The notes under the pieces: model-generated | What the model was told of the DNA's origin: nothing | Databases searched by the model: none | Seen by the model: the letters and a program-made list of their open reading frames with translations, nothing else | Program-made: the position numbers and the translations under genes | Origin: Campylobacterota bacterium | Lineage (GTDB): Bacteria; Campylobacterota; Campylobacteria; Campylobacterales; Sulfurimonadaceae | DNA length: 37,169 nt | Direction: 5' to 3' | Assembly: GCA_030836825.1 (NCBI GenBank) | Contig: JAUPLR010000120.1 | Span: 1 to 37,169, forward strand | Part shown: piece by piece, positions 16,079-35,549 of the stretch | Position numbering within the stretch: the stretch's first letter is position 1 | Layout: the number at the start of each line of letters is the position of its first letter

Positions 16079-17584
16079 TTAGTAACCGCTATTATACACG
16101 AATAATGTAATCACATTTAACAGAGGATTAACGGCAACTACTGCGAAAATAGTTCCAATTGCAGCAATTCCTACAATCGTTTTTAAGGAAAGAGACGCAT
16201 TGGTCAAATAATGTTTTTCATATCCTACAATCGGTTCTTTCATGAACATATACACGATCAATTTAAGGTAGTAATACGCTGCAAGCGCTGAGTTTAATGC
16301 CATAATGAGTGCAAGTACCGTATACCCGCCACTTACAGCAGAGGCGATAACGTATATCTTACCCCAAAACAGTCCAAAAGGCGGTATACCTGCAAGGGAA
16401 AGCATAAACAGTCCCATCATAATCGCGGCCATCGGCATCGTTTTAATCAATCCGGAGAATTTCTCAAACGCATGATCTGAGCTTTGTCCTGGTAGAAGAT
16501 TCTTCTGTCGGCTCACCCACAACATGGTAAACGCACCAAGATTCGTAAAGCCAAACAATGCCCAATACAAGAAAAGAGCCGTATTGGACTGCGTAGTGCC
16601 AATCAAAATTGCCGCCATAACAAAACCGGCATGCGAAATGGAACTGTATGCCAACATACGCTTAACGTCTGTCTGTACCATCGCCCAGATGTTGGATGCC
16701 GTCATTGTAACTACCACGGCTACGTACAAAATCACCTGTAGCCATACAACGCCACTGTGAACTAAAAATTCAAACAAACGCATAGCAACGATGAATCCTG
16801 CGATCTTAGGCACAATGGACATGTATCCAGCCAATGCCGCCGTAGATCCCTCATAAACATCCGGTGTCCACGTGTGAAAAGGGACCATCGAGAGTTTAAA
16901 GCCAAAGGCCGCAAGAAGAAAAGAGACCGCTACAAGGACATAACCAATATCCGCATAACGATCCGCGGCCAATACGGAGGCAATCTGATTGATTTCAATC
17001 GCGCCGGTAATCGCATACAAAATCATAGAACCAAAGGCGAAAAAACCAGCCGCCAATGCGCCCATAGTGAAATACTTGACCGCCGCTTCAAATGATTTTG
17101 ATCGGTTATGCAAGGCAATCAAAGCATACAAGGCTAAGGAAGCGGTTTCAAGTCCCACAAAAATCATGATTAAATTGTCCGTAGCAACCATAAATTGAAA
17201 ACCGGCAATCATAAACAAGAAAAGGGCAAAATATTCCGGATAATTATACTCATGAAAACGTTTAGACGTTAATGCCAAGGGGATGAACAGCATTGATCCC
17301 GCAACAATGATTATCTGACCCATAATGGCAAGACCATCCATGAGAATCATGTCAAACATACCCAATACAGGACCATTCTTCAAGAATGTGTTTCCAAAAT
17401 CGATAACAACCCCTAAGTCAAGCAATAAAAAGAGCAAACTGACCATAACGTAGAGAGACTTGTGCAGCCCTTCTTTGAGCATATCGATACAAAGAATACT
17501 CAATGCGCCCACGATTGCTATAAGCATCGGCGCAAGCGTAGCAATGTTCAGTGACGCTAGAGAAACATTTATTGGCTCTAACAT
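16079..17584 (-). CDS. nuoN: NADH-quinone oxidoreductase subunit N
   Basis: 501 aa polytopic; FKLSMVPFHTWTPDVYEGS, KRMLAYSSISHAGF. Confidence 0.95.
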   Translation of the reverse strand: MLEPINVSLASLNIATLAPMLIAIVGALSILCIDMLKEGLHKSLYVMVSLLFLLLDLGVVIDFGNTFLKNGPVLGMFDMILMDGLAIMGQIIIVAGSMLFIPLALTSKRFHEYNYPEYFALFLFMIAGFQFMVATDNLIMIFVGLETASLALYALIALHNRSKSFEAAVKYFTMGALAAGFFAFGSMILYAITGAIEINQIASVLAADRYADIGYVLVAVSFLLAAFGFKLSMVPFHTWTPDVYEGSTAALAGYMSIVPKIAGFIVAMRLFEFLVHSGVVWLQVILYVAVVVTMTASNIWAMVQTDVKRMLAYSSISHAGFVMAAILIGTTQSNTALFLYWALFGFTNLGAFTMLWVSRQKNLLPGQSSDHAFEKFSGLIKTMPMAAIMMGLFMLSLAGIPPFGLFWGKIYVIASAVSGGYTVLALIMALNSALAAYYYLKLIVYMFMKEPIVGYEKHYLTNASLSLKTIVGIAAIGTIFAVVAVNPLLNVITLFVYNSGY

Positions 17585-19134
17585 TAGTGTGCCTCCTGTT
17601 GTAAATTCTTGACTTCAGGATTACCAAGATTCGGAATGCGCTTTTGCGCTTCAGGTGTTTGTGCTTTATCGTGCATCAATTGGACAATCGATTCAACACT
17701 GTTGCTGATCGGTTCTAAAATCGGTTTTGGGTAGACACCCAGCCAAATCGTAATCACCGCCAGCGGTACCAATGCTAACAATTCTGTCTTATTGACGTCT
17801 TTGAGATGTTTGTTTTCTTCTTTGGTAACCGTTCCAAAAAACATCTTTTTGTAGGCAGTAAGCATGTAAATAGCGCCTACGATAATTGCGGTTCCCGCAA
17901 CCAATGCGAATCCGTGCGATTGTTTATAGAATCCAAGGAGGGACAAAAATTCGCCCACGAAATTAATCGTCAATGGCAAACCGACAGAAGCCATCATCAT
18001 AATCCCAAAGAGAGTCGCATAACGTGGCATAACAGAGGCAAGACCACCAAACTCAGACATCAGTTTTGTATGACGGCGGTCATAAATAACTCCGACAAGC
18101 AAGAACAATGCACCCGAGACGACACCGTGTGCAATCATCAGGAAAATAGATCCGCTGATCCCCTCAACGTTGAGAGCAAAAGTACCAAGAACAATGACAC
18201 CCATATGCGATACTGAGCTGTACGCCACAACTTGTTTAACGTCTTCTTGTGCGTATGCCACCATGGCAGTATAGACAATCATAATGATTGCCAATGTTGC
18301 AATTGGAAACATGAAGAATACAGAAGCATCCGGGAATAACGGTAATGAAAAACGGACAAATGCGTAGGTTCCCATTTTAAGCAAAATCGCCGCAAGGATA
18401 ACCGAACCGATGGTGGGTGCTTGCCCGTGTGCGTACGGTAACCATGTATGAAATGGAAACATTGGTACTTTGATCGCAAATCCGACAAAAAAGGCAGCAA
18501 ACAACCACAGTTGGAAATTAAGCGGCAAGATCAATCGGTACCATTCCAACAGGGAGAAGCTCCATTGCCCTGTTGCTTGGTGGTAAAAATAGGCCATAAA
18601 CAACATGCCCACCAACATTACCAATGAGCCTGTGAACGTATACAAGAAAAACTTAACCGACGCGTAAATACGAAGCGGTCCGCCCCATGCGCCAATAATA
18701 TACAACATCGGGATCAAGGAGAGCTCCCAGAAAACATAGAAAACAACCGCATCCAATGCCGCGAATACCCCAACCATCGTCATCTCTAAAAAGAGAAGGG
18801 TGACAATGAGGTCTTTAACACGACGCGTTTCAGTAAGTGACGCGATGCCAATCATCGTAAAAAACGTAGCTAGAATAATGATAAACAGCGAAATGCCGTC
18901 AATACCCACAATGTAATTAATACCAAACGCCGCAACAAGCGGAGCTGACTCCATAAATTGCATTCCGGATGTCATAGGATCATACAAATACCATAACCAC
19001 AGAGAAAGAAAAAATTCAACAGCAGCAACCGTGATACCATAGGCTCTCGCGCTGTCCTTGTGAACAATAAATCCGAGCATTGCTGCCAATGCCGGGAAGA
19101 AAATTAAAATCGATAAAATGTGTTCTTGCATCAA
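17584..19134 (-). CDS. nuoM: NADH-quinone oxidoreductase subunit M
   Basis: 516 aa; FWELSLIPMLYIIGAWGG, VPMFPFHTWLPYAHGQAPT, KQVVAYSSVSHMGV. Confidence 0.95.
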   Translation of the reverse strand: MMQEHILSILIFFPALAAMLGFIVHKDSARAYGITVAAVEFFLSLWLWYLYDPMTSGMQFMESAPLVAAFGINYIVGIDGISLFIIILATFFTMIGIASLTETRRVKDLIVTLLFLEMTMVGVFAALDAVVFYVFWELSLIPMLYIIGAWGGPLRIYASVKFFLYTFTGSLVMLVGMLFMAYFYHQATGQWSFSLLEWYRLILPLNFQLWLFAAFFVGFAIKVPMFPFHTWLPYAHGQAPTIGSVILAAILLKMGTYAFVRFSLPLFPDASVFFMFPIATLAIIMIVYTAMVAYAQEDVKQVVAYSSVSHMGVIVLGTFALNVEGISGSIFLMIAHGVVSGALFLLVGVIYDRRHTKLMSEFGGLASVMPRYATLFGIMMMASVGLPLTINFVGEFLSLLGFYKQSHGFALVAGTAIIVGAIYMLTAYKKMFFGTVTKEENKHLKDVNKTELLALVPLAVITIWLGVYPKPILEPISNSVESIVQLMHDKAQTPEAQKRIPNLGNPEVKNLQQEAH

Positions 19135-19141
19135 CAGCTCC

Positions 19142-21031
19142 TTACATCGCCCGCATAGTTACTGCGTTGTATCCAACAGTAAATGCGATAGCTAGTACCA
19201 ATAAAACCACTAAACCGACAACCATCCAGCGTAACATACTGGAAAGGTTACCGTTTTGCATGGTATGTGTTTTTTCACCCGTACGATAGATGACATTCGC
19301 GATTCCATCCACCGTTGCATCAACGATTTTAAGATCAATTTGCTTCCATGCTACTTTTGAGAGTTCGCGGTAGGGTTTTGTGAATACTTCATCATAGATT
19401 TTAGGGATGTAATACTGATTGTAAAGCAATTGATAGAAAAAGCCTGATTCAACTTTTACATCCACTCTGACTGCTTTTGCATATTTTTTATACGCAAAAG
19501 CAATCGCTGCAATAACAAACAATTGCGTTCCAATCGTCATAATCCAAAACGTCGTATGATTGTGCACATGATATTCTATAGCCGGCAAAAGCTGGGTAAC
19601 CATTTCATAATACGGTGTTTTAAAGACCATACCCGCAATAACTGCCAATACCGCCAACGGCGCCATAGCATACAGCATAAACGTATAGGCCTCATGAGGA
19701 TGGATACCGTATTTCAAATGTCGCTCGTTACCATGGAAAATCAACGCAACAAGACGAAACGAATAAAATGCCGTCAAGCCCGCTGTTAATAACAATACGG
19801 TGTAAAGAACATAGTGTTGTTCAACAAAGGCAACTTCTAAAATCAAGTCTTTTGAGAAGAATCCTGCCAATGGGTAAATTCCTGCAAGGGCAACAGACGC
19901 CAACGTCATAAGAATCCATGTCACCTTCATCGACTTTTTTAATCCGCCCATTTTAAAGGGATCAAGCTCATCGTGCATTGCGTGCATAACATTACCCGCA
20001 CCTAAGAATAACAATGCCTTAAAGAATGCGTGTGCCATAAGGTGAAACAACGCAACCCAGTACGCGCCCAAACCGGCTGCCACAAACATGTAACCCAGTT
20101 GTGACAACGTAGAATACGCAACGATACGTTTCATATCACGATTTACCAAGGCCATGGTTGCCGCAAACATCGCGACGAATGCGCCCAATGAAGCGATTGC
20201 GACACCAACTTCCGGAATCAAACCATAGATAGGATTAGCACGCACCACCAAGTAAACGCCCGCAGTTACCATGGTTGCTGCGTGGATCAATGCCGAAACC
20301 GGAGTAGGACCTTCCATCGCGTCTGCAAGCCATGTGTGTAACGGGAATTGCGCAGATTTACCCATTGCCCCAACAAAGAGGAAAATTCCAATCCATGTAA
20401 CAATAGGGATAGAAAGATTCGAAATTTCAGCAAAAACAACATCATACTGCAGCGATCCGATATTCCAATAAATCATGAAAATACCCACCAACATTGCCAA
20501 GTCAGCAATACGGTTCATAATAAACGCTTCATTTGCTGCCCACGTTGCCGATTCTTTGTGATACCAAAAACCAATCAGCAACCATGAACATAGCCCCACG
20601 CCTTCCCAACCAATAAACAGCCCTAGGAAGTTGTCACTCATAACGAGTATCATCATTGAAAAAACAAATGCGCTTAAGTACGAGAAGAAGCGATTGAATC
20701 CTTTATCGTGGTCCATATAGCCGATTGAATAAATGTGAACAATGGTCGAAACAACACTTACTACCATCATCATAACGACACTGACTTGATCAACCACAAA
20801 TCCGAATGGGACATAAAAATCTCCCGCAGCAATCCACGTCATCATTTCTACGTGAACCGTGTGTCCTGCCATAACATAATTAAGCAATACAACACTGCTC
20901 ATAAAAGAGACAAACAACAATCCAGAGGCAACCATTCCGGTCACGCTTGTCTTCGGAGAAGCACCAAAAAGTGCAGAAAACAGGGAACCTGCCAGCGGCG
21001 CAAAAAGTGCGATGTATAAATAAATTTCCAT
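19142..21031 (-). CDS. nuoL: NADH-quinone oxidoreductase subunit L
   Basis: 629 aa; GWEGVGLCSWLLIGFWY, AQFPLHTWLADAMEGPTPVSALIHAATMVTAGVYL, KRIVAYSTLSQLGYM. Confidence 0.96.
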   Translation of the reverse strand: MEIYLYIALFAPLAGSLFSALFGASPKTSVTGMVASGLLFVSFMSSVVLLNYVMAGHTVHVEMMTWIAAGDFYVPFGFVVDQVSVVMMMVVSVVSTIVHIYSIGYMDHDKGFNRFFSYLSAFVFSMMILVMSDNFLGLFIGWEGVGLCSWLLIGFWYHKESATWAANEAFIMNRIADLAMLVGIFMIYWNIGSLQYDVVFAEISNLSIPIVTWIGIFLFVGAMGKSAQFPLHTWLADAMEGPTPVSALIHAATMVTAGVYLVVRANPIYGLIPEVGVAIASLGAFVAMFAATMALVNRDMKRIVAYSTLSQLGYMFVAAGLGAYWVALFHLMAHAFFKALLFLGAGNVMHAMHDELDPFKMGGLKKSMKVTWILMTLASVALAGIYPLAGFFSKDLILEVAFVEQHYVLYTVLLLTAGLTAFYSFRLVALIFHGNERHLKYGIHPHEAYTFMLYAMAPLAVLAVIAGMVFKTPYYEMVTQLLPAIEYHVHNHTTFWIMTIGTQLFVIAAIAFAYKKYAKAVRVDVKVESGFFYQLLYNQYYIPKIYDEVFTKPYRELSKVAWKQIDLKIVDATVDGIANVIYRTGEKTHTMQNGNLSSMLRWMVVGLVVLLVLAIAFTVGYNAVTMRAM

Positions 21032-21034
21032 TGT

Positions 21035-21340
21035 TTACCCTCGCATCGATGTCATAATATCTAGGTCGATCTTGCCGGTACGCTTGTACCATACGATCAA
21101 CAACCCAAGTCCAACGGCTACTTCAGATGCCGCAATAGCAATAATGAAGAAGGCAAACATCTGCCCCGTTAAGTCATTGTGAAAGTGCGCAATCGCAGCA
21201 AAGCCAATATTGGTCGCATTGAGCAATATCTCTGTCGCGAAAAAGAGCATCAGCAAGTTTTTACGACGCATTACCCCGATCAGACCAATCGCGAACAGCA
21301 CGCCTGAGAGTACTAGGTAGTGAGCTAATGTAATTTCCAT
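21035..21340 (-). CDS. nuoK: NADH-quinone oxidoreductase subunit K
   Basis: 101 aa; LVLSGVLFAIGLIGVMRRKNLLMLFFATEILLNATNI. Confidence 0.95.
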   Translation of the reverse strand: MEITLAHYLVLSGVLFAIGLIGVMRRKNLLMLFFATEILLNATNIGFAAIAHFHNDLTGQMFAFFIIAIAASEVAVGLGLLIVWYKRTGKIDLDIMTSMRG

Positions 21341-21930
21341 TAGTGGGCTCCTTCTTCTTCTGTATCTTTAGGAGCTTGAGTTGCGCTCATAAGCGCAATC
21401 TCTTCTTCCGCCATTAAGGTCAACGATTTATCCATTTTCTTACCTGCCAACACGATACCGGCAATCATCGCAACCAATAACATAACGGCTGCAAGTTCAA
21501 ATGGAACCAAAAATTTGGTAAACAAGACCAAACCGATAGCTTGAGAATTTCCAACAGCCGCCTCGATCGGATAACGCGCTTCCAAATTTGTAGAAATAAT
21601 CGGGGAAACCAAAATAAAGACGATCAAGGTTGCGGCCATTACCCCCAATACGAAAATGATACGTGGATTGTTCTGTTTTTCAACCAACGTACGCGTTGTA
21701 TCAAAAAACATCATACCAAAGGCATACAACGCCATAACAGCACCCGTATAAACGATGATTTGAACAACTCCAAGAAAATCAGCACCGAGCATAAAGAAGA
21801 AAGCTGAGATAAAAATCATCCCAGAGGCCATCGCCGTTAATGCATACAATGCCTGTGAAGTCATAACCGTAATGGTAAACATACCAATCGTTAATGCCGC
21901 AAACAAATAAAAAGCAATTGCTTCAAACAT
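21340..21930 (-). CDS. nuoJ: NADH-quinone oxidoreductase subunit J
   Basis: 196 aa; FLGVVQIIVYTGAVMALYAFGMMF. Confidence 0.93.
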   Translation of the reverse strand: MFEAIAFYLFAALTIGMFTITVMTSQALYALTAMASGMIFISAFFFMLGADFLGVVQIIVYTGAVMALYAFGMMFFDTTRTLVEKQNNPRIIFVLGVMAATLIVFILVSPIISTNLEARYPIEAAVGNSQAIGLVLFTKFLVPFELAAVMLLVAMIAGIVLAGKKMDKSLTLMAEEEIALMSATQAPKDTEEEGAH

Positions 21931-21940
21931 TCATATCTCC

Positions 21941-22561
21941 TTAATAGGCAAGCGGTGTTTTAGCAACACGCTCGTCCTCATGTGGGGTAATCGAACCAAA
22001 ACCTGGATAATCTTTTTGCTGTCCTGACACTAATAAATCAAGAGGGGTGAGCATATCGTCTTTGATTACAAAGTGGGCACGCTGTTGAGACGCATTTTCA
22101 TACCGTTCTCCATGTACAATAGCCAGTTCCGGACATACTTCCGCACAATATCCGCAAAAAATACAACGTCCAAGATTAATACTGTATTCGGTGACTTCTT
22201 TACGGCTATTTTCATCAATACGCGTATCCATACGAATACAATCAGAAATACAGATTTTTTCACACAATCCGCATCCGATACAACGTTCAAATCCAGACTC
22301 CCACAAACGTAACAGTTTATGAACAGCGCGATAACGCGGACCGATCGGAAGTTTTTCCATCGGATATTTCACGGTATGGATGTCAAACTTAATCATCTCA
22401 CGCATTACTATCCATAATCCGATAAAAAGCTCCCCTTTTAGTGAACGCTTTACGACTTGCTTAAATTTATCCCATCCCGTAACCGGATACTCTTCAATAT
22501 CGACATAGTAATAAGCACTTTGCTCACTTACGTTACGATCTGTAAACGGCTCTACATGCAT
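21941..22561 (-). CDS. nuoI: NADH-quinone oxidoreductase subunit I (2x[4Fe-4S])
   Basis: 206 aa; CIGCGLCEKIC and CIFCGYCAEVCP ferredoxin motifs. Confidence 0.95.
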   Translation of the reverse strand: MHVEPFTDRNVSEQSAYYYVDIEEYPVTGWDKFKQVVKRSLKGELFIGLWIVMREMIKFDIHTVKYPMEKLPIGPRYRAVHKLLRLWESGFERCIGCGLCEKICISDCIRMDTRIDENSRKEVTEYSINLGRCIFCGYCAEVCPELAIVHGERYENASQQRAHFVIKDDMLTPLDLLVSGQQKDYPGFGSITPHEDERVAKTPLAY

Positions 22562-23568
22562 TACATGCCCCCTTGAGTTTTAATCAAAATAACAACACCC
22601 GTAACAATAACGTTCAAGATGGCTATAGGCATCAATACTTTCCAACATAACCACATCAACTGATCCGGTCGAACATCCGGCCATGCAGCCCTTGTCCATA
22701 AGAAAAAGAAGAAAAAGAAAGCTACTTTCATCAATAACTGAAAGGCTCCGGCAATTGAACCATCACCGTAACCACCCAAAAATATGATTGCCATAACAAA
22801 TGAAATAAAGAACATGTTGGCGTACTCGCCGATAAAGAACAGACCCCATCTCATCCCAGAGTACTCCGTACCAAAACCATCGACAATTTCATGATCATTG
22901 GCTACGAGGTGAAACGGCGTACGCCCTGTTTCTGCAAAAGCAGCAATCCAAAACAAGATGAAAGCAACCGGTTGCGACCATGCTAACCAATCAAAAAAGC
23001 CACCTTTTTGATAATTGTTGATATCAATCAACGACAACGATCCAACCATCATCAAAGGCGCCAGCAATGAAAGCCCTGTGATAACTTCATACGAAATGAA
23101 CACTGCCGCACCACGCGCCGCCGAAAGCAACGACCATTTATTCGCCGATGCCATACCGCCTAGCAATGGACCGTACAATCCGATTGCCATAACCGCCAAT
23201 ACATACAAGATACCTACATTGACGTCGGCAACAATAGGATGTACCGTGTATCCAAAAACCGTAAACTCAGGCCAAAACGGAATCGCAGCAGCTGCCATGA
23301 ATGCAGTCGATGCTGTTATTACCGGGGCGATTTTAAAAATCGGTTTAACGACATTTTGCGGGATAATGTCCTCTTTCGTAATGAGTTTAATCCCATCAGC
23401 CGCCACTTGGAGCAAGCCATAGGGACCAACGTGTGTCGGTCCCAAACGACGCTGCATAAACGCAAGAACCTTACGTTCAAAGTAGGTTCCAAAACCCGCA
23501 AGGGCTGAGAAAACCGATAAGATCACAACGATTTTAACTATCGTCTCGATGATAAATGCTACATCCAT
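22561..23568 (-). CDS. nuoH: NADH-quinone oxidoreductase subunit H
   Basis: 335 aa; FERKVLAFMQRRLGPTHVGPYGLLQ, GRTPFHLVANDHEIVDGFGTEYSGMRWG. Confidence 0.97.
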   Translation of the reverse strand: MDVAFIIETIVKIVVILSVFSALAGFGTYFERKVLAFMQRRLGPTHVGPYGLLQVAADGIKLITKEDIIPQNVVKPIFKIAPVITASTAFMAAAAIPFWPEFTVFGYTVHPIVADVNVGILYVLAVMAIGLYGPLLGGMASANKWSLLSAARGAAVFISYEVITGLSLLAPLMMVGSLSLIDINNYQKGGFFDWLAWSQPVAFILFWIAAFAETGRTPFHLVANDHEIVDGFGTEYSGMRWGLFFIGEYANMFFISFVMAIIFLGGYGDGSIAGAFQLLMKVAFFFFFFLWTRAAWPDVRPDQLMWLCWKVLMPIAILNVIVTGVVILIKTQGGM

Positions 23569-23570
23569 GC

Positions 23571-26057
23571 TTACGCCTTTTGAATTGATACAGTTGCAAA
23601 ACGGTAACCGTCAAACAATGCACCAGAATTTATTTGTGTGTCAAATGTTGGGAGATACGGAATCTCGCCATCAATTTTTCCATCCGCGATTACGTTGACC
23701 ACGATTTCCCCTTGTGCCGTTTTAACGCGAACACGATCACCGTCCTTTACCCCATTAGCGCTCATAAAGGCAGCCGATGCATAAAGCCCGCCTGTCCCTT
23801 TGAGTTGATGCGCTTTTGCTGTAAACGGTGTGAAATGCAAGACAGGATTTGCTAAATAGACAATTCCCTCACCCATTGCGGAAGATTCATTGAATCTTGT
23901 GACACTTTCATCCCCATTTACACTGACAGAAGAAACAGCAAGGAGATAGCCGCGCACCTCTTCACCTGCATTGGTATAGTAGTTTGGCAAGGTATCAAAC
24001 TCTACGGCTTTAAATCCCGAAGATACCGGAAGCTGTTTCGTATAATTCACCGTCAATGCCTCATTAAACCCAAGCGCATTTGCAATATCATTGAGCGTAT
24101 ACCCGCCAAATCCTACCGCTACGTTGGTCGGATTAACCCGCTTATCGATGCTGGTTAACGTCCCCTCTTGCTGATTAAGTGCCGGCATATCCAAATCACC
24201 GTTGCCTAAGGCACTCAATGTGAAATTTCCTGCTGCATTATATCCAATTGTGTAGCTTCCGCCGGCGGCATCCAGATCACAAATCAATGCTGCTCCCAAT
24301 GTATTGGACAGGTTGGGAATCATGGTTACATTAAACGCTGTATATTTTTCGATCAACGCAACCAAACGAGCACAGTTGACCGCATTTGGGTGGCTGTACA
24401 AATCAGGTCCGACCATCAATGCAAATTTCTCTTTTTTCGCCAAATATTTAATCAATGTGTCTGCAAATCCTGCCGGTGCATTTAAAAGATCGTAAAGGCG
24501 GTTATCATCCACTTCTACTTCTTTGGATACTTTTTTCTTGACGGTTTTTGTGACCTCTTCGTTTACGTCTTCTTCGAGACCCGTTTCTTCATTGAGAACT
24601 TTTTTAACAACGGTTTCAGTTACTTTTTCATCTACCGTTTCTTCAATCGTGACCGTTTTTGTCGAATGAAACGTTGCCAAATAGCTTACGACGTCCGAAG
24701 GCATCGCCGCTTTATCCCCAAACAAGTCAAGCATCAAATACAATGCCGCTTCTTCCATCATCGCCGCATGATTAAATTGCGTCACATTTTTGGACATATC
24801 ATTGATAACAGGATCATTAATCGGATGAAAATAAAGCCCTGCCCCTTTGTTCATCGAAAGGGCATTGTTCATGGCAAAACGGGCATTGGGATTATCGGTT
24901 TTCAATGCGCTACCGATGGAGACCACGAAATCGCTGTCATGGACTTCTTTTAAGTTACCGCTGTAAAGCGATTGCCCGCTGATTGCGCTGTATGCATTTA
25001 AAAATGCTTTAAATACTCTTGCTTCCTCATTGATCAAACGGTAACCGAATTTTTCTTTGAGACGTTGTAAAATCATTGCCTCTTCATTGGTGATCGTTGA
25101 GGTAAAGCGAATTGTGTCCGCTTTTTTAAATGCAGCGATTGCCGCATCAAATTGTCCTGCATCTTTGGTCACATTGCTGTTTTGGAAATCGTATCCATAC
25201 CGTCCAGCTCCGCACAAGGATACATAGTTCCATTCATTTTTAACACGATAGATCTTGTCTTCCGGATCCGCAATGCTCGTGTGCTTAATATCGTAGCTGA
25301 TTTGACACCCCGCACTACAGTGCGTACAGGTAGCCGGAATTTGCTCATGCTCCCACGCGTTTGCACTGTATTGGTAATCCGTACTTACCAACGCACCTAC
25401 CGGACAAACGGACGTACACTCACCGCAGTTAGTACAGTCAAGCGTATCGCCCGCATTTGGAGCAATCAAGGACTTATTGAGTTTATTCCACATTGCGTAG
25501 GCATCTTTTGGCATTGACTCTTTAAAGGCTGGATCAATAGCATCACTCCCGCGCGCAACCGTAGAAAGTGCGCCATCGCCGATCATGTCTTTACAGACCG
25601 TAATACAGCGCTCACACATAATACACAAAGCGGGATCATACTTAATGAGTCCCCAATCTTGTGCCGGCTTGAACGTATCTGCAATACAGTACGATTGCGA
25701 ATCAACCGCCAATTCCAAAGTATAGTTTTGAAGTTCGCACTCTCCCGATTGATCACAAACGCCGCACTCTAATGGATGATTTACATCATAAACTTCCATA
25801 ATTGCCCGTTTTTCTTGTTCAATGGTCGATGTGCTGGTAACAACATTCATCCCTTCTTTTGCTTTTGAATTACACGCATAGACTTGTTTTCCATCCGCCT
25901 CTACCAAACAGATACGACAGGCCAATGTTGGTGAGCAGCGTGTCAGATAACATATAGCAGGGATAAAAATACCATTGGCGCGCGCCGCATTGAGGATAAA
26001 TTCACCCTCTTGCGTTTGAACCGCTTTACCATCTATGGTTATCGTTATTTCATTCAT
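23571..26057 (-). CDS. nuoG: NuoG-like complex I subunit, second paralog
   Basis: 828 aa; CYLTRCSPTLACRICLVE, HPLECGVCDQSGEC, CIMCERCITVCK, CTNCGECTSVCPVG, CTHCSAGC...LCGAGR. Confidence 0.92.
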   Translation of the reverse strand: MNEITITIDGKAVQTQEGEFILNAARANGIFIPAICYLTRCSPTLACRICLVEADGKQVYACNSKAKEGMNVVTSTSTIEQEKRAIMEVYDVNHPLECGVCDQSGECELQNYTLELAVDSQSYCIADTFKPAQDWGLIKYDPALCIMCERCITVCKDMIGDGALSTVARGSDAIDPAFKESMPKDAYAMWNKLNKSLIAPNAGDTLDCTNCGECTSVCPVGALVSTDYQYSANAWEHEQIPATCTHCSAGCQISYDIKHTSIADPEDKIYRVKNEWNYVSLCGAGRYGYDFQNSNVTKDAGQFDAAIAAFKKADTIRFTSTITNEEAMILQRLKEKFGYRLINEEARVFKAFLNAYSAISGQSLYSGNLKEVHDSDFVVSIGSALKTDNPNARFAMNNALSMNKGAGLYFHPINDPVINDMSKNVTQFNHAAMMEEAALYLMLDLFGDKAAMPSDVVSYLATFHSTKTVTIEETVDEKVTETVVKKVLNEETGLEEDVNEEVTKTVKKKVSKEVEVDDNRLYDLLNAPAGFADTLIKYLAKKEKFALMVGPDLYSHPNAVNCARLVALIEKYTAFNVTMIPNLSNTLGAALICDLDAAGGSYTIGYNAAGNFTLSALGNGDLDMPALNQQEGTLTSIDKRVNPTNVAVGFGGYTLNDIANALGFNEALTVNYTKQLPVSSGFKAVEFDTLPNYYTNAGEEVRGYLLAVSSVSVNGDESVTRFNESSAMGEGIVYLANPVLHFTPFTAKAHQLKGTGGLYASAAFMSANGVKDGDRVRVKTAQGEIVVNVIADGKIDGEIPYLPTFDTQINSGALFDGYRFATVSIQKA

Positions 26058-26060
26058 GAT

Positions 26061-28310
26061 TCAACTACCCACCCTCATAATTTTAATTTTTTCAAAGCGA
26101 TAACGCTCGTTCATGGCTCCAAATTTTTCATCAAACGTTGGCGATAATGCAATGGTCCCTTTTAGACTCTCATCAAGAACAAAAGTGCGCATTTCAATAT
26201 TTCCATTGGATTGAACTTCTACTCGATCTCCATTACCAATACGCGCTGCCGCCGCAAACTGTGCTGATCCTCGCAATGCCGCGTCTCGCTCTAACTGCGT
26301 TGTATGGGCCGTATAGATATTGAATTGATTAACAGGATTACAGCGATACACAACCGTACCGTTGAATTCCGGTAATTCTGCTATCTCCTCCAGCGCTCCA
26401 TTCACGGGCACGTCGAGTGTTTCTAACCTATAACCGCGATTGTCTTCCCCTAATGCTCCGTAAAAGTTCCCAACTTTATCGAACGCGATTGCCTTGAACC
26501 CTTTTGTCTTTGGCAGCTGTGCCGTGTAATCAATGGTATTGAGCCTTCGTAATCCAAGCGCATTGGCAAGATCGTTTAAACAGTATCCCTCAAAACCAAT
26601 CGCAACGTTTGTAGGCAATAGCTGATGATTCATGCTCACAACTGTCCCTTCTTGACCATTCATAGCAGGTACCGTAAGATCACTCTCGCACATAGCACCA
26701 ATCACAAAATCTCCGTTTGCGTTATACCCAACAACCTCTGCACTGTTTTCATCCTGATCAAGATCGCACACCAATGAAACACCCACCGTATTGACGTTCA
26801 CAGGCACAATAACAAGAGAGAAATCGGCGTATGCTTCAACCAATGCCGCCAAACGTGCAATATTTTGCGCGCGTTCATGAGTCAACACGTCCGATCCGAT
26901 TATCAATGTTTTGCGTTTCATACGGCGCAATGATTTTTCAATACGAGCGAACTCTTCATCCCCGGCATTGCTCTCGGCACACAAATAACCCTCGTCCAAC
27001 TCATTGAAAAATTCTCGAATCTCATCACTAAGATCTGCATCTGCCAACAGCGTTTTGGCCAACATTGCCATAACGCCCTCTTCAGACCCTGCTTCGTATT
27101 TCACAAATTGTGTTACAACGTTTTGCAAGAGGGTATCTTCGAGCGGGTGCATGTAAATAATTTTAGCCCCATTGTGGCGCGCCGCAGTCGTCATCGCATA
27201 ACGAACACCCGGATTATCCGTTGCAATACGTCCGCCCAATACGATAATCGCGTCACTTTGCGCAATCGCATCCAGCGTTCCGCTAGACGCTGATTTTCCA
27301 CTTATGCTTGCGTATGCTTGCATAAACATTTGATACGCTCTTGCCTCTTCATTGAAAAGCTTCAGTCCAAGCTTTTCTTTGAGGTTTTGCAAAATCAAGG
27401 CTTCTTCATTCGTAATGATTGAGCTAAATCGTATTGCTTTTGCGTTTCGAAGAGCAGATACCGCTTTTTCAAAGGCAACGGTATCTTTGGATGCTTGTAC
27501 GTCATAGTCAAATCCAAATCGTCCGGCACCGCAAAGGGTTGCGTATTCAAAATTATTCGTCACACGATAAATGCGCTCTTCATTGCCTGTAGCGATCGAG
27601 GTATGTTTGACTTCATACGTCAATGAACACCCTGCTGAACAGTGTGCGCATGTTGCGGGAACAGGGCTAAGTTCCCACGTATTCGCTTGATATTGAAAGT
27701 CAGAACTCACCAATGCACCCACCGGACACACCGCAATACACTCACCACAGAAGGTACAATCAAGTTTATCGCTGTTTTTAGGGATAACCGCCGATTTGTA
27801 TCCCCCAAATTGCAAGGTTATTGCATCGTCCCCAATGATCTCATTACAGACATGGACACATTTTTCACATAAAATACACAAAGACGGATCATAATTAATC
27901 AATCCCCAGCGTTCTGTCTTGCGCGGTTGTTCTTTGGCAGTAAAATGCTGAGAATCAATATTGAATTCTAATGTTTTATTTTGAAGATCACACGCGCCTG
28001 ATTTATCACATACTCCGCATTCCAGAGGATGATTGACATCATACATACGCATAATATTGGTACGTTCTCGTTGTAAACGCTCCGAATCAAGCGTAACTTC
28101 CAATCCTTGCGTCGGTTGTGTTTGACAGCTCAAAACAAGACTGTCGGTGGTGTTAACTTCTACCACGCACAACCGGCACGATGCGCACGGCGTTGTTTTT
28201 TCCAAATAACACATGGTTGGAATATAAAAGCCAGCCTTGCGTGCCGCTTGAAGGATTGTTTCCCCTTTGGTCGCGGTTACAGGTTGGTTATTTATTGTAA
28301 AATTGATCAT
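26061..28310 (-). CDS. nuoG: NuoG-like complex I subunit, first paralog
   Basis: 749 aa; CYLEKTTPCASCRLCVVEV, HPLECGVCDKSGAC, CILCEKCVHVCN, CTFCGECIAVCPVG, CAHCSAGC...LCGAGR. Confidence 0.93.
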   Translation of the reverse strand: MINFTINNQPVTATKGETILQAARKAGFYIPTMCYLEKTTPCASCRLCVVEVNTTDSLVLSCQTQPTQGLEVTLDSERLQRERTNIMRMYDVNHPLECGVCDKSGACDLQNKTLEFNIDSQHFTAKEQPRKTERWGLINYDPSLCILCEKCVHVCNEIIGDDAITLQFGGYKSAVIPKNSDKLDCTFCGECIAVCPVGALVSSDFQYQANTWELSPVPATCAHCSAGCSLTYEVKHTSIATGNEERIYRVTNNFEYATLCGAGRFGFDYDVQASKDTVAFEKAVSALRNAKAIRFSSIITNEEALILQNLKEKLGLKLFNEEARAYQMFMQAYASISGKSASSGTLDAIAQSDAIIVLGGRIATDNPGVRYAMTTAARHNGAKIIYMHPLEDTLLQNVVTQFVKYEAGSEEGVMAMLAKTLLADADLSDEIREFFNELDEGYLCAESNAGDEEFARIEKSLRRMKRKTLIIGSDVLTHERAQNIARLAALVEAYADFSLVIVPVNVNTVGVSLVCDLDQDENSAEVVGYNANGDFVIGAMCESDLTVPAMNGQEGTVVSMNHQLLPTNVAIGFEGYCLNDLANALGLRRLNTIDYTAQLPKTKGFKAIAFDKVGNFYGALGEDNRGYRLETLDVPVNGALEEIAELPEFNGTVVYRCNPVNQFNIYTAHTTQLERDAALRGSAQFAAAARIGNGDRVEVQSNGNIEMRTFVLDESLKGTIALSPTFDEKFGAMNERYRFEKIKIMRVGS

Positions 28311-28319
28311 CCATACCCC

Positions 28320-30356
28320 TTAATGTGCAACCATTGCGATGTAATAACAACGCATACAGCGCTCTGCCTCAGAAATTGCCTGTTCTTGCGTAAATCCGTA
28401 TTTCACTTCTTTGTTGTTGTATTTACGTTCATCCGCGGTAAGAACTTCACTGTGTTCTCTAGGAAGACCCGGAAGCCACCCCGTTACTTTTTCTTTCTTG
28501 TTGTATACTTTGAGCCTGCGCAAGTGATCTTCCATTATCTCATTATCAAGCAGAACAATTTGACCGTCTTGAACGTAGCGCGATATAACCGAGGAAGCGC
28601 GTTTTGCTTGACCTACCGCATTTACGATTGTCATTGGCCCGTATTCACAGTCACCTGCTGCAAAAATACCTTTGCGTGATGTCATGTAGTCTTTGCCGTT
28701 TGTTTTGATCGTACCCCACGAAGTACGCTCAATTTCCCACTCTTCAGGTATGAGTTTCAAATCAGCGCTTTGGGATACCGCAGGGATAAGATAATCACAC
28801 TCCATCTCAAACGATGCGCCCTCGATTTTTTCCAATGTTGGACGCCCGCCATTAGGATCCGGAACCAATTCAAACCTATCAATCAACAGTGATTTTAAGA
28901 CATTGTTCTCATCGCGCATCTCAGCAACAGCCGAGTGAAAAATAAACTCAACGCCCTCTTCGACCGCTTCGTGATACTCTTCGTACGTTGTGTTGTTTAT
29001 GATCGTCTTTTCATCACGACGATAGATCATGACTACTTTTTTTGCATTCGCACGGATCGAGCAACGAACAACGTCCATCGAGGTAAATCCGCCACCGACA
29101 CACACAACCGTCTTGCCCGTTAAATCAACGTAGTCTTTCTCCAGCATATGCTTCTTTTGATCTACCTCCGGAACCATTATTCCGTATTTGACTTCCAAAT
29201 TGACTTTATCGAGAAAATCAATCGCACCCCAATAGCCTTGAATATCCGCACGTTCATTTTCACAATAGACTTTTTTAGAAATACGCGTCCCCGTTGCCAC
29301 CAAAATCGCATCGTAATCGGATTCAAATTGACGCATCATATCCGCATCTACGCGCGTGTTCGTGATAAACGTTACACCCAAGTCACGCACCGCTTTAATG
29401 TCTTGATTGTAGCGATCAATGGGCATACGGTATTCAGGTACCCCAACAGCAACTTCGCCACCAAGAACCGGAAGCTCTTCATACACGTCAACGTCGATCC
29501 CCTCAAGTGCCATATAATACGCACCCGTAAGTCCCGCAGGACCTGAACCGATAACCGCTACTTTCTTACCGTTTAACGGCTTTTGCTGTGCAGGATGAAA
29601 AAAGCCAAAACCATGATCGATTTCATAATCGGCACCCAAACGCTTGAGTTCCATAATCGAAATCGGCTCATCCAAATTCGTACGACGACACTCTGTCTCA
29701 CACGGATGAGGGCAAACGCGTCCGCACGTGTGCGCAAGAGGCATGGTTTGGCGTGTCGCCATCAATGAATCATCAAAACGCAAATCACGAACACCCTCAA
29801 TATAGGCCGGAATATCTACATGTGCAGGACATGCGTCCATACACGGCGCAGTAATTTTGGCGATATAGTTGGTGTCTTGCATGTGATAATGCTTGGACGC
29901 TTTTTGGTTGTTGATGCAATCCATAAATTCCGCTTCAAAATGGTGCATCAAATCCAGCAATGGAGTAGGGACGGTTTTTCCTATTTCACATTTTGAGGTC
30001 TCTTGCATGGTTTTTGAAACCTCTTTGAGGTGGTCCATATCCGATACGGCACCCTCCCCGCGAGCGATTTTATCTAACAGATCGTACAAAATACGTCCGC
30101 CCCATCGCCCTGGCGCACAACGTCCGCATGCCTCCGAATAGACCTGATATTGCGCGGCATATTCAGCAGCCAAACGAACCACGTCAACATCGGGGTTAAA
30201 CAGTGCGAGACCATCCCATCCAATGAACGCTTTTGAGTGGGCATGTTCATTATAATCTGCGGGCAAATTATAAGCGGATACTTCCCACTGCTCTTCGGGT
30301 TTGCCAATGTTATTGATCTGCTCCCCGCGCCATGTGGAAAAATAGACTTTGCTCAC
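28320..30356 (-). CDS. Composite complex-I-associated oxidoreductase: degenerate NuoF N3-cluster domain plus GltD-like FAD/NAD(P)H oxidoreductase, in the nuoF position
   Basis: 678 aa; N-terminal SEACGRCAPGRWGG...ETSKCEIGK (NuoF N3-like); then CMDACPAHVDIPAYI...CGRVCPHPCETECRR, VAVIGSGPAGLTGAYYMA, VVCVGGGFTSMDVVR, GIFAAGDCEYGP. Confidence 0.85.
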   Translation of the reverse strand: MSKVYFSTWRGEQINNIGKPEEQWEVSAYNLPADYNEHAHSKAFIGWDGLALFNPDVDVVRLAAEYAAQYQVYSEACGRCAPGRWGGRILYDLLDKIARGEGAVSDMDHLKEVSKTMQETSKCEIGKTVPTPLLDLMHHFEAEFMDCINNQKASKHYHMQDTNYIAKITAPCMDACPAHVDIPAYIEGVRDLRFDDSLMATRQTMPLAHTCGRVCPHPCETECRRTNLDEPISIMELKRLGADYEIDHGFGFFHPAQQKPLNGKKVAVIGSGPAGLTGAYYMALEGIDVDVYEELPVLGGEVAVGVPEYRMPIDRYNQDIKAVRDLGVTFITNTRVDADMMRQFESDYDAILVATGTRISKKVYCENERADIQGYWGAIDFLDKVNLEVKYGIMVPEVDQKKHMLEKDYVDLTGKTVVCVGGGFTSMDVVRCSIRANAKKVVMIYRRDEKTIINNTTYEEYHEAVEEGVEFIFHSAVAEMRDENNVLKSLLIDRFELVPDPNGGRPTLEKIEGASFEMECDYLIPAVSQSADLKLIPEEWEIERTSWGTIKTNGKDYMTSRKGIFAAGDCEYGPMTIVNAVGQAKRASSVISRYVQDGQIVLLDNEIMEDHLRRLKVYNKKEKVTGWLPGLPREHSEVLTADERKYNNKEVKYGFTQEQAISEAERCMRCYYIAMVAH

Positions 30357-30358
30357 GA

Positions 30359-30589
30359 CTATTCCTTATTCTTGACCACTATGGTCCAGTCCGCTTCGTT
30401 AAATTTCAACGAATTTATTAGCTCGTATCCCTTGGCTTTGACCAAGTCGGCACTCTTTTGAATTGGTGTAAAATCACCAATCTCAAACAAGAAAATCAAC
30501 ACTTCTTTGGTTGATGCCTCTTCTTGCATGATTTGACCCATGCGGTCGTAAAAAGCACCTTTGAGGTGACGTAAATCGTAACGTTTCAT
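30359..30589 (-). CDS. Small cysteine-free protein in the nuoE position
   Basis: 76 aa, between nuoD and the nuoF-position gene in a tightly packed operon. Confidence 0.8.
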   Translation of the reverse strand: MKRYDLRHLKGAFYDRMGQIMQEEASTKEVLIFLFEIGDFTPIQKSADLVKAKGYELINSLKFNEADWTIVVKNKE

Positions 30590-30599
30590 GCGAGTCCTT

Positions 30600-31826
30600 C
30601 TAGCGGTCTACTTCACCGAAGACGATATTGGTCGTCCCGATGATGGATACTACGTCTGGGATATAATGCCCAGGCAACAAATCAGTTAAAATACCCGTAT
30701 GCCAGAATGATGGTCCACGTAATTTAAGACGGTACGGATACGGCCCGCCTTGGCTATTGATGTAAAACCCTAGCTCTCCTTTAGGAGATTCAGTCGGGAC
30801 GTACACTTCACCCACAGGCGGACGCATCCCTTGCGTAACCAGGACAAAATGCTGCATCAACGCATAGTTTTGCGTCATAATATCCAGTTTTGGTGCTGAA
30901 ATATACTGTGGTGCATGCGCCATCAATTCGGTTGGCGTTCCCTCATACATATCCGCAACTTGGTATAAGATTTTTGCCGACTCACGCATTTCTGCCATGT
31001 AAAGCTTATAACGCGCATAGTTATCTCCCTTGTCAGAAACAGGAACATTAAACTCTACTTCATCGTACAATTCATACGGCTCTTCTTTGCGGATATCCCA
31101 TTGGACGCCGGAGGCACGCAGCATAACCCCTGAACAGCCCCAGCTTAATGCCATCTCTTTAGAAATAACACCGACGTTTTCCATACGCATCAACCAAACA
31201 CGATTCTTATCCAATAAATCTTCATAATCTTTGATGTTTGCCGGTAATTTATCCAAAAATTTACGTAAATCCGTTATAAAATTATCCGGCAAGTCCAAGG
31301 GAACTCCGCCGATACGAATAGCGGCATGCGTCAAACGTGCGCCACAATAATCTTCGACCAAATCCATCAAATACTCGCGCTCACGGAAGGCATACAAGAA
31401 TACGGTCATGGCGCCGATATCCAAAGCCGTCGTTGCCAACCAGAAAAGGTGAGACATCAAACGGTTTATTTCCAAAAGAAGCATACGAATCACTTTCGCA
31501 CGACGCGGAACCTCAAGACCGATCAATTTTTCTACGGCAAGGGCAAAACCATAGTTGTTTGAGCTTGAAGCGATGTAATCCATACGGTCGGTAGTTGGCA
31601 TGAACTCATTGTAGATCATGTTCTCCGCCATCTTCTCCATACCGCGGTGAAGGTATCCGATATCCGGATGCGCTTTGGTGATCTGCTCTTGCTGCATGTG
31701 CAGCATAAGGCGCAGTTGCCCGTGTGACGACGGATGCTGAGGACCGAAGTTAAGGACCATTTCATTGTCAACTCGATCAAAGGTAATATTTTCAAAAAAT
31801 GGTCTAAGACGATTGGCTTGTTGCAT
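30600..31826 (-). CDS. nuoD: NADH-quinone oxidoreductase subunit D
   Basis: 408 aa; [54 protein letters not shown]. Confidence 0.97.
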
Positions 31827-31836
31827 TCACAACTCC

Positions 31837-32643
31837 TTAACGGTGGCGATCAGAGATCACAACGGACTTCTGAGTATCAAATTTATCGACCATGAACACA
31901 CCTTTTTGTTCTTGGTAAACAAGCGGTGTATCCGGTTCGCCTTGGCTAATGTCTGTACCAAATGGTACTTCGTGCCCCAATCTAGCGAAACGCTTTGTAT
32001 CATAACGATCAATGCGCGCAGGATCACGATTTTCAGGCCCAATAATCTCTCTGGCTTCTTTGCCGAAGATTTTATCGACTTCATACCATGCTGCAAATTC
32101 ATCACCTTGCAATGGATACGTTTTGCGCAATGGAAATCCTTCCCAGTCATCCGGCATCAAAATACGTTTCATGAAAGGGTGATTGTTAACGACAACTCCA
32201 AACATATCGTACATTTCGCGCTCAGACCAATCTGCACAGCGGAAAAGCTTCTCAACGCTTTGTATGGCTTCTTTCTCATCGATTTTACATTTGATACGAA
32301 CACGCTTACGCTTAGCCATACTCAACATTTGATAGAAAATTTCGAATTTTCCCTCGGTTGCCAACCAGTCAATCGCACTCATCTCTGAGAGCTGTGTGTA
32401 TTCACGCTCGTTTTTGAGCAACTCAAGAACAGCATAATTGTCGTTCGCATGAATCACAACTACCATCTGGTCTACTTGAATATAGGCATCCAAAACATCA
32501 AATTTTGCTTTGATTGCATCAAGGTCCGCTGCAAATACGGCATCATCACTTACTGCCGATTTTGCCACTTGCGGGGCTACCCAAAAGCGATCCGTGTAAT
32601 ACGATTTTTTTTGTACGTTATCCTTAGGCGTATAGGCTCTCAT
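31837..32643 (-). CDS. nuoC: NADH-quinone oxidoreductase subunit C
   Basis: 268 aa; [43 protein letters not shown]. Confidence 0.95.
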
Positions 32644-33152
32644 TACATCAACCTTTTAGGTTTTTGAGCACGAGAGGCTGGCTCTTTACGGATCTTTTGC
32701 TGCAGCATCATTACCGCATATTGTAATGTTTCAGGGCGTGGTGCACAACCAGGGAGATACAAATCTACCGGAATAACACGATCAACCCCTTGAACCGTCG
32801 CATACGTATTAAACATACCACCCGTATTGGCACATGAACCCATAGAAATCACCCATTTTGGCTCTGTCATTTGATCGTACAAACGTCGGATAAATTCCGC
32901 GTGTTTTTTGGTCAACGTCCCTGCGACAATCATAAGTTCCGCCTGACGAGGAGAAGCACGGAAAATCGTACCAAAACGGTCGAAGTCATAACGAGATGCG
33001 CCCGAAGCCATCATCTCAATACCGCAACATGCCAAACCGTATGTTAGTGCCCAAATCGAATTTGAACGTCCCCAGTTTACGACTTTGTCAATTGTCGTCA
33101 ACGCGACGGGAAGACCGCCGTCTTTTAAGTAATTTACTTGATGTTGTGCCAT
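32643..33152 (-). CDS. nuoB: NADH-quinone oxidoreductase subunit B; start placed at MAQHQVNY rather than the track start 33173
   Basis: [36 protein letters not shown] at 33152 preceded by aaaaggagcgctcga. Confidence 0.95.
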
Positions 33153-33523
33153 TCGAGCGCTCCTTTTTTCCATGCATAAACAAAACCGATTGCTAACAAC
33201 AAAATAAACGTTAGCATCTCAACAAAACCAAACCAACCTAGCAATTTAAAATCAATTGCCCATGGAAACATAAAGACGATCTCTACGTCAAAAAGCAAAA
33301 ATAAAAGTGCGAACAGGTAAAACTGCGTCGAAATGCGGTTAGGCTGACGCGTAACCTCAGGACCACACTCATAAGGCGACAGTTTCAATTTTTCTGTATC
33401 TTTGGCCGCCAATGCACGGCTCGCCAAGCGTGCCAATACCGTCGTCGCATAAAATGCTCCAAACGTAATAACAAACAGTACAAATACCCCGAAATAAGGA
33501 TTTGCGACGTTGTAATGTTCCAT
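33134..33523 (-). CDS. nuoA: NADH-quinone oxidoreductase subunit A
   Basis: 129 aa; [41 protein letters not shown]. Confidence 0.96.
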
Positions 33524-33812: not shown

Positions 33813-35549
33813 TTAATTGTTTAAAAATCCTACCGACTTTTCGGTGTCAAAATTTCCTTGACGCTCTTTTTCGATTTCATTCACAAAATCTTCCAATCGA
33901 AAAATTGGCTCTTTGCGTGTGGCAACGGTATACGCTGTATTTTTCACGATCAAATTGATCTGTCCGCCTGTCAAAGGATAGGTTGAGAGTTTTTCCATCT
34001 CAAATCTCTCTTCATACGGTGCGTTCTTCGGCAGCATCATTTTCCACAACTTGAGACGCTGTGCCTTATCCGGTTTTTTAAACTCTATTTTGTAGTTAAA
34101 TCGGCGCGAGAACGCTTGATCAATATTTTCGAGTAAATTAGTGGTCGCGATCAAAATACCCTGAAATTTTTCGATCTGTTCCAAAAAAATGTTCTGCATC
34201 TGATTGTGCATCTGATCGGCCGATGTACCCGCTCCTTGAGAACGTGATGAGAGAAACTGATCGGCTTCATTGAGCAAAAGAATCGGTTCAGTTTTCGTCT
34301 GCTTCGTCAAATCGGCGTAAGTGTCGAATATTTTGCGAACATTTTTTTCAGATTCTCCCACATACATCGAGAGAATTTTGGAACAATCAAAACTCAAAAC
34401 CTGCCGCTTCAGTGACCGTGAGAGGGAATGGGCAGTGAGGGTTTTGCCCGTACCCGGAGGACCGTAAAAAATGATCCGTGCATCGATTCCCGCTTTTTTA
34501 TCTTTGATTCCCCATTCGTGCAATTTCGCGATCACTTCACGATCCAACTGATGCATCAGATTCTGTAGCGTTTTATCCGTTGAGGGATTGAGCACCACAT
34601 TTTCGAGTGAAGTGGTAGGCTCAATAAGTTCAAATATTTCCTGCTCTTTGATCAGCATATCCAGCTTGAGCTTACGTGCTTTTTTCTTCTTCTGCGGGTG
34701 CATGATCGATTGAAGCACCTCATCAACGATGTAAAAGGCTCTACTAATACCGCCAAAGGGATTGAGCATCTCTTCGTAATCAATCACATCCTCGTTAATC
34801 AAACGCGATCCGTCTTCAAGCAATGCACGGTTTTTAATCCGCTCGTAATCGTCAAAACTGATCAGATCGATGAGCGTATTCATCTCGCGCAAATTCCCCT
34901 CAGTCGAACTGTACTCCTCTTTGAGCAATGCCAAAAAAATCACCTGCTCTTTGGGTTCCAGCTTCTTTTGCTTGAAAAAACGGTCCAATACGACATCCTG
35001 AGAAGTTTGAGCGATCCGTTCTTCAATCCGTTTTTCCAACAAATCCAGCTTGCTTTGAATGCGGTTGATCCCCAAGGAGTGCTCATTCCCGTTATTACGG
35101 ATAATCGACATTTTTTGGTACAGCTCGATACGGAAAAACTGATCTTGCAGATATTCCAAATGATCGGCATACGGTTTGATCTCAGGCAACGTCATTTCCA
35201 ACGAACCCTCTTCGAGCAGCTTCATAAAAATCGTGGTCAATGCGATAGGAGTATTAAACAGTTCCAACTGAGAAAGCTCACTCATTTTGATCGGAGTGAA
35301 AGAGTGATGCGTAATCCACCCAAGTTCCAAAAGCGTTTTCACCTCGCCAAAGTGGCTCAAATACGAGTAGTCGTCAGGGCCATACAGCTCTTGGAGCAAT
35401 TCGGCTACAACCACATCCTCTTGGGACTGCAAAAATTTACGGGTTAGCAGTTGGAGAACCTTCCCCTCCTCAACGGTACATTTTAATTGTGCAAAAATCT
35501 CAGATTGCTCAATGGATGGGTTCTCTAAAAAATCAATTAAATATTTCAA
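33813..35549 (-). CDS. AAA-family ATPase with long N-terminal region
   Basis: 578 aa; Walker A GPPGTGKT, Walker-B-like ILLLNEADQF, sensor-1-like IATTN, arginine-finger-like FSRRFNYKIEF. Confidence 0.88.
   Translation of the reverse strand: MKYLIDFLENPSIEQSEIFAQLKCTVEEGKVLQLLTRKFLQSQEDVVVAELLQELYGPDDYSYLSHFGEVKTLLELGWITHHSFTPIKMSELSQLELFNTPIALTTIFMKLLEEGSLEMTLPEIKPYADHLEYLQDQFFRIELYQKMSIIRNNGNEHSLGINRIQSKLDLLEKRIEERIAQTSQDVVLDRFFKQKKLEPKEQVIFLALLKEEYSSTEGNLREMNTLIDLISFDDYERIKNRALLEDGSRLINEDVIDYEEMLNPFGGISRAFYIVDEVLQSIMHPQKKKKARKLKLDMLIKEQEIFELIEPTTSLENVVLNPSTDKTLQNLMHQLDREVIAKLHEWGIKDKKAGIDARIIFYGPPGTGKTLTAHSLSRSLKRQVLSFDCSKILSMYVGESEKNVRKIFDTYADLTKQTKTEPILLLNEADQFLSSRSQGAGTSADQMHNQMQNIFLEQIEKFQGILIATTNLLENIDQAFSRRFNYKIEFKKPDKAQRLKLWKMMLPKNAPYEERFEMEKLSTYPLTGGQINLIVKNTAYTVATRKEPIFRLEDFVNEIEKERQGNFDTEKSVGFLNN

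Follow-up and report, generated by a model that had tools for sequence, protein, structure and literature searches.

The window analyzed here comprises positions 1 to 37,169 of contig JAUPLR010000120.1 (assembly GCA_030836825.1) from a Campylobacterota bacterium of the Sulfurimonadaceae. Its minus strand carries a complete nuo operon, in which the genes for NuoA to NuoD are followed by those for NuoX, an N3-GltD fusion protein, two NuoG paralogs and NuoH to NuoN (Table 1). NuoX, which lies between NuoD and the fusion, occupies the slot of NuoE. A full nuo operon in which PF16514 follows nuoD identifies a Campylobacterota complex I of the NuoX type; it is not of the NuoXY subtype, as the fusion and two NuoGs are found here instead of a short NuoY and a single NuoG. 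No match to Complex1_51K (PF01512) could be detected anywhere in the window, and the order NuoD-NuoX-fusion-NuoG1-NuoG2-NuoH-NuoI agrees with the proposal of a preliminary description of this DNA that the fusion replaces NuoF. All fusion loci of sufficient length had this same order, which was kept in Sulfurimonadaceae, Sulfurovum and several other families. Both NuoG paralogs (23571-28310) have ligands for N1b, N5, the two-cluster ferredoxin domain and N7. Directly upstream of nuoA lies a gene for an AAA ATPase with a winged-helix domain (33813-35549), and directly downstream of nuoN one for a 785-aa TPR protein with DUF7494 (13699-16056).

Table 1. Features of the nuo operon and of the fusion protein (positions in the window)
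Feature	Position	Strand	Details
NuoA (Oxidored_q4)	33134..33523	-	
NuoB (Oxidored_q6)	32643..33173	-	
NuoC (Complex1_30kDa)	31837..32643	-	
NuoD (Complex1_49kDa)	30600..31826	-	
NuoX	30359..30589	-	76 aa; HP1264/Cj1575c family; PF16514, 1.3e-37
N3-GltD fusion protein	28320..30356	-	678 aa; GTG start; open frame throughout
NuoF/HydB-homologous segment with N3 domain	29898..30275	-	residues 28-153; C77, C80, Gly83, C123
GltD-type Fe-S domain Fer4_20	29613..29852	-	residues 169-248; C172, C176, C215, C219, C223, K238
FAD / NAD(P)H two-Rossmann module Pyr_redox_2	28605..29567	-	residues 264-584
C-terminal C667-M-R-C670 motif	28347..28358	-	matches StnC-type proximal-cluster ligands; putative assignment by alignment
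NuoG1	26061..28310	-	749 aa; ligands for N1b, N5, two [4Fe-4S], N7
NuoG2	23571..26057	-	828 aa; the NuoG retained by every sampled genome that has this complex
NuoH (NADHdh)	22561..23568	-	
NuoI	21941..22561	-	two [4Fe-4S]
NuoJ, K, L, M, N membrane subunits	16079..21930	-	

The assembly (174 contigs, 90.7% complete) also contains pieces of a second complex I. One contig (C16; loci L001/L103) encodes NuoA, NuoB, a fused NuoCD, NuoE and the beginning of NuoF, the latter being a truncated gene that is the sole match to PF01512 in this genome; on another (C169; locus L102), the end of NuoF is encoded together with a NuoG of 448 aa and other nuo genes. These pieces form a separate canonical operon of the NuoCD type. 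A canonical nuoEF elsewhere in the genome had been regarded beforehand as an argument against the replacement of NuoF; it was indeed found, but in this separate operon, which is absent from most relatives, and its presence has no bearing on the fusion itself. The second complex could supply NADH oxidation, which counts against the fusion as an entry subunit. The cluster sites of NuoG1 and NuoG2 apparently outnumber those of its canonical NuoG.

Domains, selection and cluster ligands of the fusion protein

In the fusion protein, Pfam identified the N3 domain of NuoF (NADH_4Fe-4S, PF10589) at residues 73-145 (E = 6.4e-20, 71.3 bits against a cut-off of 23.5), within a stretch of NuoF homology covering residues ∼28-153, followed by Fer4_20 (E = 1.7e-22) and Pyr_redox_2 (E = 3.3e-25). 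Thus, the remainder of the protein is a complete GltD-like FAD/NAD(P)H module as described earlier, and the absence of the FMN/NADH-binding region was likewise borne out, PF01512 not being found in the protein. A single reading frame encoded the fusion in dozens of genomes, full length was retained across families, and dN/dS was 0.02-0.05 across the whole gene, with dN about equally low in both halves, which indicates strong purifying selection. The predicted model (pLDDT 77, pTM 0.71) had the GltD fold, with NfnABC 9bov_A (3.7e-39), StnC 8oh5_C (4.2e-38) and NfnA 9n5u_A as best PDB matches; by sequence and by predicted fold, the GltD part was nearest to StnC and NfnA of the bifurcating transhydrogenases. 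Members of the GltD/NfnL/DPD family share with it the Fer4_20 and Pyr_redox_2 fold and the FAD and NAD(P)H sites, whereas the fusion has an extra N-terminal N3 domain and its operon contains neither a glutamate synthase nor an NfnS partner.

The N3 site itself is altered. The fusion shows the pattern C77-x2-C80-x2-G83...C123 instead of the CxxCxxC...C expected of NuoF, and CGxCxPCR is the corresponding motif in canonical NuoFs and HydBs of this family. Since the third cysteine position was Gly83 in all 73 homologs, the alteration concerns the whole fusion family, and the domain is a non-canonical cluster site in which one of four ligands is invariantly missing. The site may hold a cluster on three cysteines or another metal, or the Fe-S cluster could be absent from it. 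C147 was considered as a substitute ligand and rejected, being conserved in only 47 of 71 sequences. C77, C80 and C123 were invariant in 73/73 homologs; the neighboring K122 and E124 were also invariant in fusions and did not occur in the canonical sequences used for comparison. The invariance of these five residues implies that the site is kept for something. In sequence comparisons, the N3 segment scored best against HydB/NfnB-type subunits (57-65 bits) and mostly 29-44 bits, once 53, against NuoF of complex I, which places it nearer to the HydB/NfnB type; the whole protein reached 53.1 bits against the NuoF family TIGR01959, below its cut-off of 558.65. Thus, a NuoF-type N3 domain, as first described, was recovered by the domain search, but with an altered ligand set and closer kinship to HydB/NfnB. 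The segment that precedes it is also homologous to NuoF (Nqo1, 51 kDa), and the docking place on NuoG is probably the same; the fusion differs in lacking the FMN/NADH domain and in the glycine at the third N3 cysteine.

Ligands of the GltD module were fully conserved: C172, C176, C211, C215, C219, C223, K238 and R310 were invariant in 73/73 homologs, and C667 and C670 in 44/44. In the alignment to StnC, K238 corresponds to K170 and R310 to R239, residues described for the non-bifurcating FAD of StnC and its unusual proximal cluster (PMC10482914). Judged from sequence only, StnC-like ligands for two [4Fe-4S] clusters are present, with C172, C667, C670 and K238 as putative ligands of the proximal cluster and C176, C215, C219 and C223 as those of a second one, and the residues through which StnC passes electrons from FAD to iron-sulfur clusters are kept. 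StnABC and NfnABC (8oh5, 9bov, 9n5u; PMC10482914) therefore resemble the present system in the GltD-like FAD/NADPH module, the Lys-liganded proximal cluster, the conserved Arg, and the NuoG-like and N3-bearing partner chains; they differ in that the fusion joins the GltD module to an N3 domain instead of NuoG and sits inside a full membrane complex I operon. Moreover, the FMN-bearing StnB and the StnA-type [2Fe-2S] thioredoxin subunit of bifurcating Stn/Nfn enzymes are absent from the fusion operon; a 2Fe-2S_thioredx protein is encoded outside it, on contig C16.

Distribution of the fusion and origin of NuoY

The closest homologs of the fusion were found in Sulfuricurvum (up to 96% identity), then in Sulfurimonas and Sulfurovum, the three genera in which a check of conservation had been suggested. 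A hand tally of the Sulfurimonadaceae survey gave the fusion in 57 of 61 genomes, and in an even sample it was present in 27 of 130 genomes. In 17 of the 57 fusion-bearing genomes there was also a further N3-domain protein with a strong match, and the fusion was the sole N3-domain protein in 38 of the 61, several of them complete. In a plasmid-only search outside Campylobacterota, all matches were below 60% identity, and those listed were of NuoF or HydB type where annotated.

NuoX (PF16514) was detected in 333 of 398 Campylobacterota genomes and in none of 14 controls, and was followed by one of two states. The fusion with two NuoGs was found in Sulfurimonadaceae, in the families coded f4, f6, f8, f9, f11 and f12, in part of f7 and in a few f2 genomes; a NuoY of 230-340 aa (one of 216 aa) with one NuoG was found in families f3 and f10, part of f7 and most f2 genomes. 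Genomes of Helicobacter, Campylobacter and Sulfurospirillum type were without the fusion and had a NuoY of the Cj1574c/HP1265 type in the slot. The NuoXY-type complex (Cj1575c/Cj1574c, HP1264/HP1265) thus has the same operon, the same NuoX and the same slot before NuoG2, but in its genomes neither the fusion nor the Fe-S half of NuoG1 is present. A fusion with 54% identity was present in genome G167, presumably Wolinella succinogenes, and NuoY in G128 and G141, which we take to be H. hepaticus and C. hominis. In the presumed W. succinogenes, NuoG2 is read in two overlapping frames near residue 285 (L081:4781-7103), either a real split or a sequence error, and in one f3 genome NuoX and NuoY are fused in one 354-aa frame (L097:373-1437).

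Profile comparisons revealed what NuoY is. Against 21 NuoYs, the NuoG1 C-terminal profile scored 77-236 bits (E 1e-25 to 1e-73) and the equivalent NuoG2 profile 9-90 bits; conversely, the NuoY profile gave 124-225 bits on NuoG1, at most 75 on NuoG2 and at most 2.5 on fusions, so that an origin of NuoY as a decayed fusion protein was rejected. NuoYs cover NuoG1 model positions ∼342-507 and ∼632-751, the same internal segment (about 507-632) being missing in all, and the motif DxGYLSAExN was found in 36/41 NuoG1, 18/21 NuoY and 0/60 NuoG2 sequences. The NCBIfam NuoG model matched NuoY (94 and 22 bits), Pfam at its cut-offs gave no NuoG match to it, and the predicted NuoY fold (pLDDT 91) matched molybdopterin-type domains of formate dehydrogenase and NuoG. 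In NuoY (Cj1574c/HP1265), the C-terminal half of NuoG1 survives as a remnant. No invariant cysteine could be found in the NuoY alignment, and as a NuoG1 remnant that has no conserved cluster ligands, NuoY itself is unlikely to carry electrons.

In a NuoG2 tree rooted with NuoG1, a quick tree whose basal forks are weakly supported, fusion genomes were spread over the base and NuoY genomes fell in nested groups, with at least four changes of state between fusion and NuoY. From this pattern, gain of the fusion is less likely than its loss together with the Fe-S half of NuoG1. Of the two architectures, that with the fusion probably came first in the group, and the lack of NuoE/NuoF in C. jejuni and H. 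pylori, cited in the preliminary description as known, goes along with absence of the fusion there and is probably a derived condition. Although the tree needs at least four changes, the internal segment missing from all NuoYs favors a single origin over independent ones, and the shared deletion allows one origin followed by transfer. We also considered that N7 of NuoG2 served as a wire to NuoG1 and was lost with the fusion; raw counts suggested this, but a tree-aware test showed no coupling, Helicobacter keeps NuoG2 N7 without the fusion, and some fusion genomes are without N7. In families f3, f10, f7 and f9, NuoG2 has other residues in place of all four N7 cysteines (NSxS-type), whether or not the fusion is present.

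Electron entry into the complex

How electrons enter the complex I of Campylobacterota without NuoE/NuoF has been an open question ever since genome sequences of H. pylori and C. jejuni first became available. The results above favor the fusion as the subunit through which electrons enter (or leave) the complex I specific to Campylobacterota (probability about 0.7), and its position as the sole candidate front end in 38 of the 61 Sulfurimonadaceae genomes speaks for this. Its ligand set suggests that it is most likely a non-bifurcating, StnC-like NAD(P)H module. The N3 domain would clamp the fusion onto a NuoG where NuoF normally docks; in known complex I structures there is one docking place, for which the two NuoG subunits would compete, a point against this reading. 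NAD(P)H would reduce FAD, and NADPH appears the more probable donor because the nearest characterized relatives (StnC, NfnL and GltD) use it. From FAD, electrons may pass through the proximal and then the second cluster to the NuoG clusters, from where NuoI and NuoB would convey them to menaquinone, coupled to proton pumping. As FMN is gone, N3 would lie off the obligatory path, which would explain the loss of one of its ligands. In autotrophs oxidizing sulfide, sulfur or H2, the path may run in reverse and provide NADPH for the reductive TCA cycle, which would fit hosts that are sulfur-oxidizing autotrophs. In Helicobacter, Campylobacter-type and Sulfurospirillum-type bacteria, the fusion and the Fe-S half of NuoG1 would have been lost, with NuoY as the remnant, and NuoG2 may take electrons from flavodoxin or ferredoxin.

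The main rival is a three-way exchange with ferredoxin, because the literature assigns flavodoxin or ferredoxin to the NuoXY-type complex as proposed donors, C. jejuni included (PMC6682613, PMC4585668), and HP1264 (NuoX) was reported to bind FMN (PMC6269979). Ferredoxin or flavodoxin would then enter through NuoX/NuoG2, and the fusion would be a side branch to NADP(H), making the complex a membrane-bound ferredoxin:NADP oxidoreductase with quinone as third partner. NuoX is indeed common to both complex types, complexes without the fusion retain NuoG2, and each half of the fusion is similar to parts of ferredoxin-linked transhydrogenases; however, no FMN or bifurcating module is encoded beside the fusion, and the FAD-proximal ligand set, with Lys238, is of the non-bifurcating StnC type, so that we consider this reading unlikely. 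Still less probable is a separate soluble GltD-type NADPH oxidoreductase merely co-transcribed with the nuo genes: such modules are known in many soluble enzymes, but the fusion's N3 domain of NuoF origin, its location between nuoX and nuoG, the invariant synteny and the exchange of the same place with a NuoG1-derived stump argue against it. A degenerate relic without electron-transfer function, which the missing N3 cysteine might suggest, is contradicted by the dN/dS values, the invariant GltD-site ligands and the full length retained across families, and is very improbable.

Returning to the fusion as an entry subunit, a broader picture can be drawn, to which we give slightly less than even odds: a third way of feeding complex I, in which a GltD-type NADPH flavoprotein with an altered N3 clamp and two NuoGs in series would act in autotrophs as a quinol:NADP+ reductase driven by the proton-motive force, and of which the Helicobacter/Campylobacter complex I would be a stripped-down form, with NuoY as a cofactor-free NuoG1 stump. 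In the open-access literature, we found neither this fusion described as a subunit of complex I nor NuoY interpreted as a remnant of NuoG, while prior mention in subscription papers is possible; the parts are all known, and the combination and the origin of NuoY appear to be new.

In the complex I of sulfur-oxidizing Campylobacterota, a glutamate-synthase-like NAD(P)H flavoprotein thus takes the place that the usual NADH subunit has in other bacteria. The locus represents a fuller complex I architecture with a recognizable NAD(P)H site in free-living members, apparently also in the tractable W. succinogenes, and the unexplained NuoY subunit (Cj1574c/HP1265) gains an origin from a NuoG paralog. 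If the fusion works with NADPH, the quinone pool and the proton-motive force would be coupled directly to NADPH, a reductant for carbon fixation.
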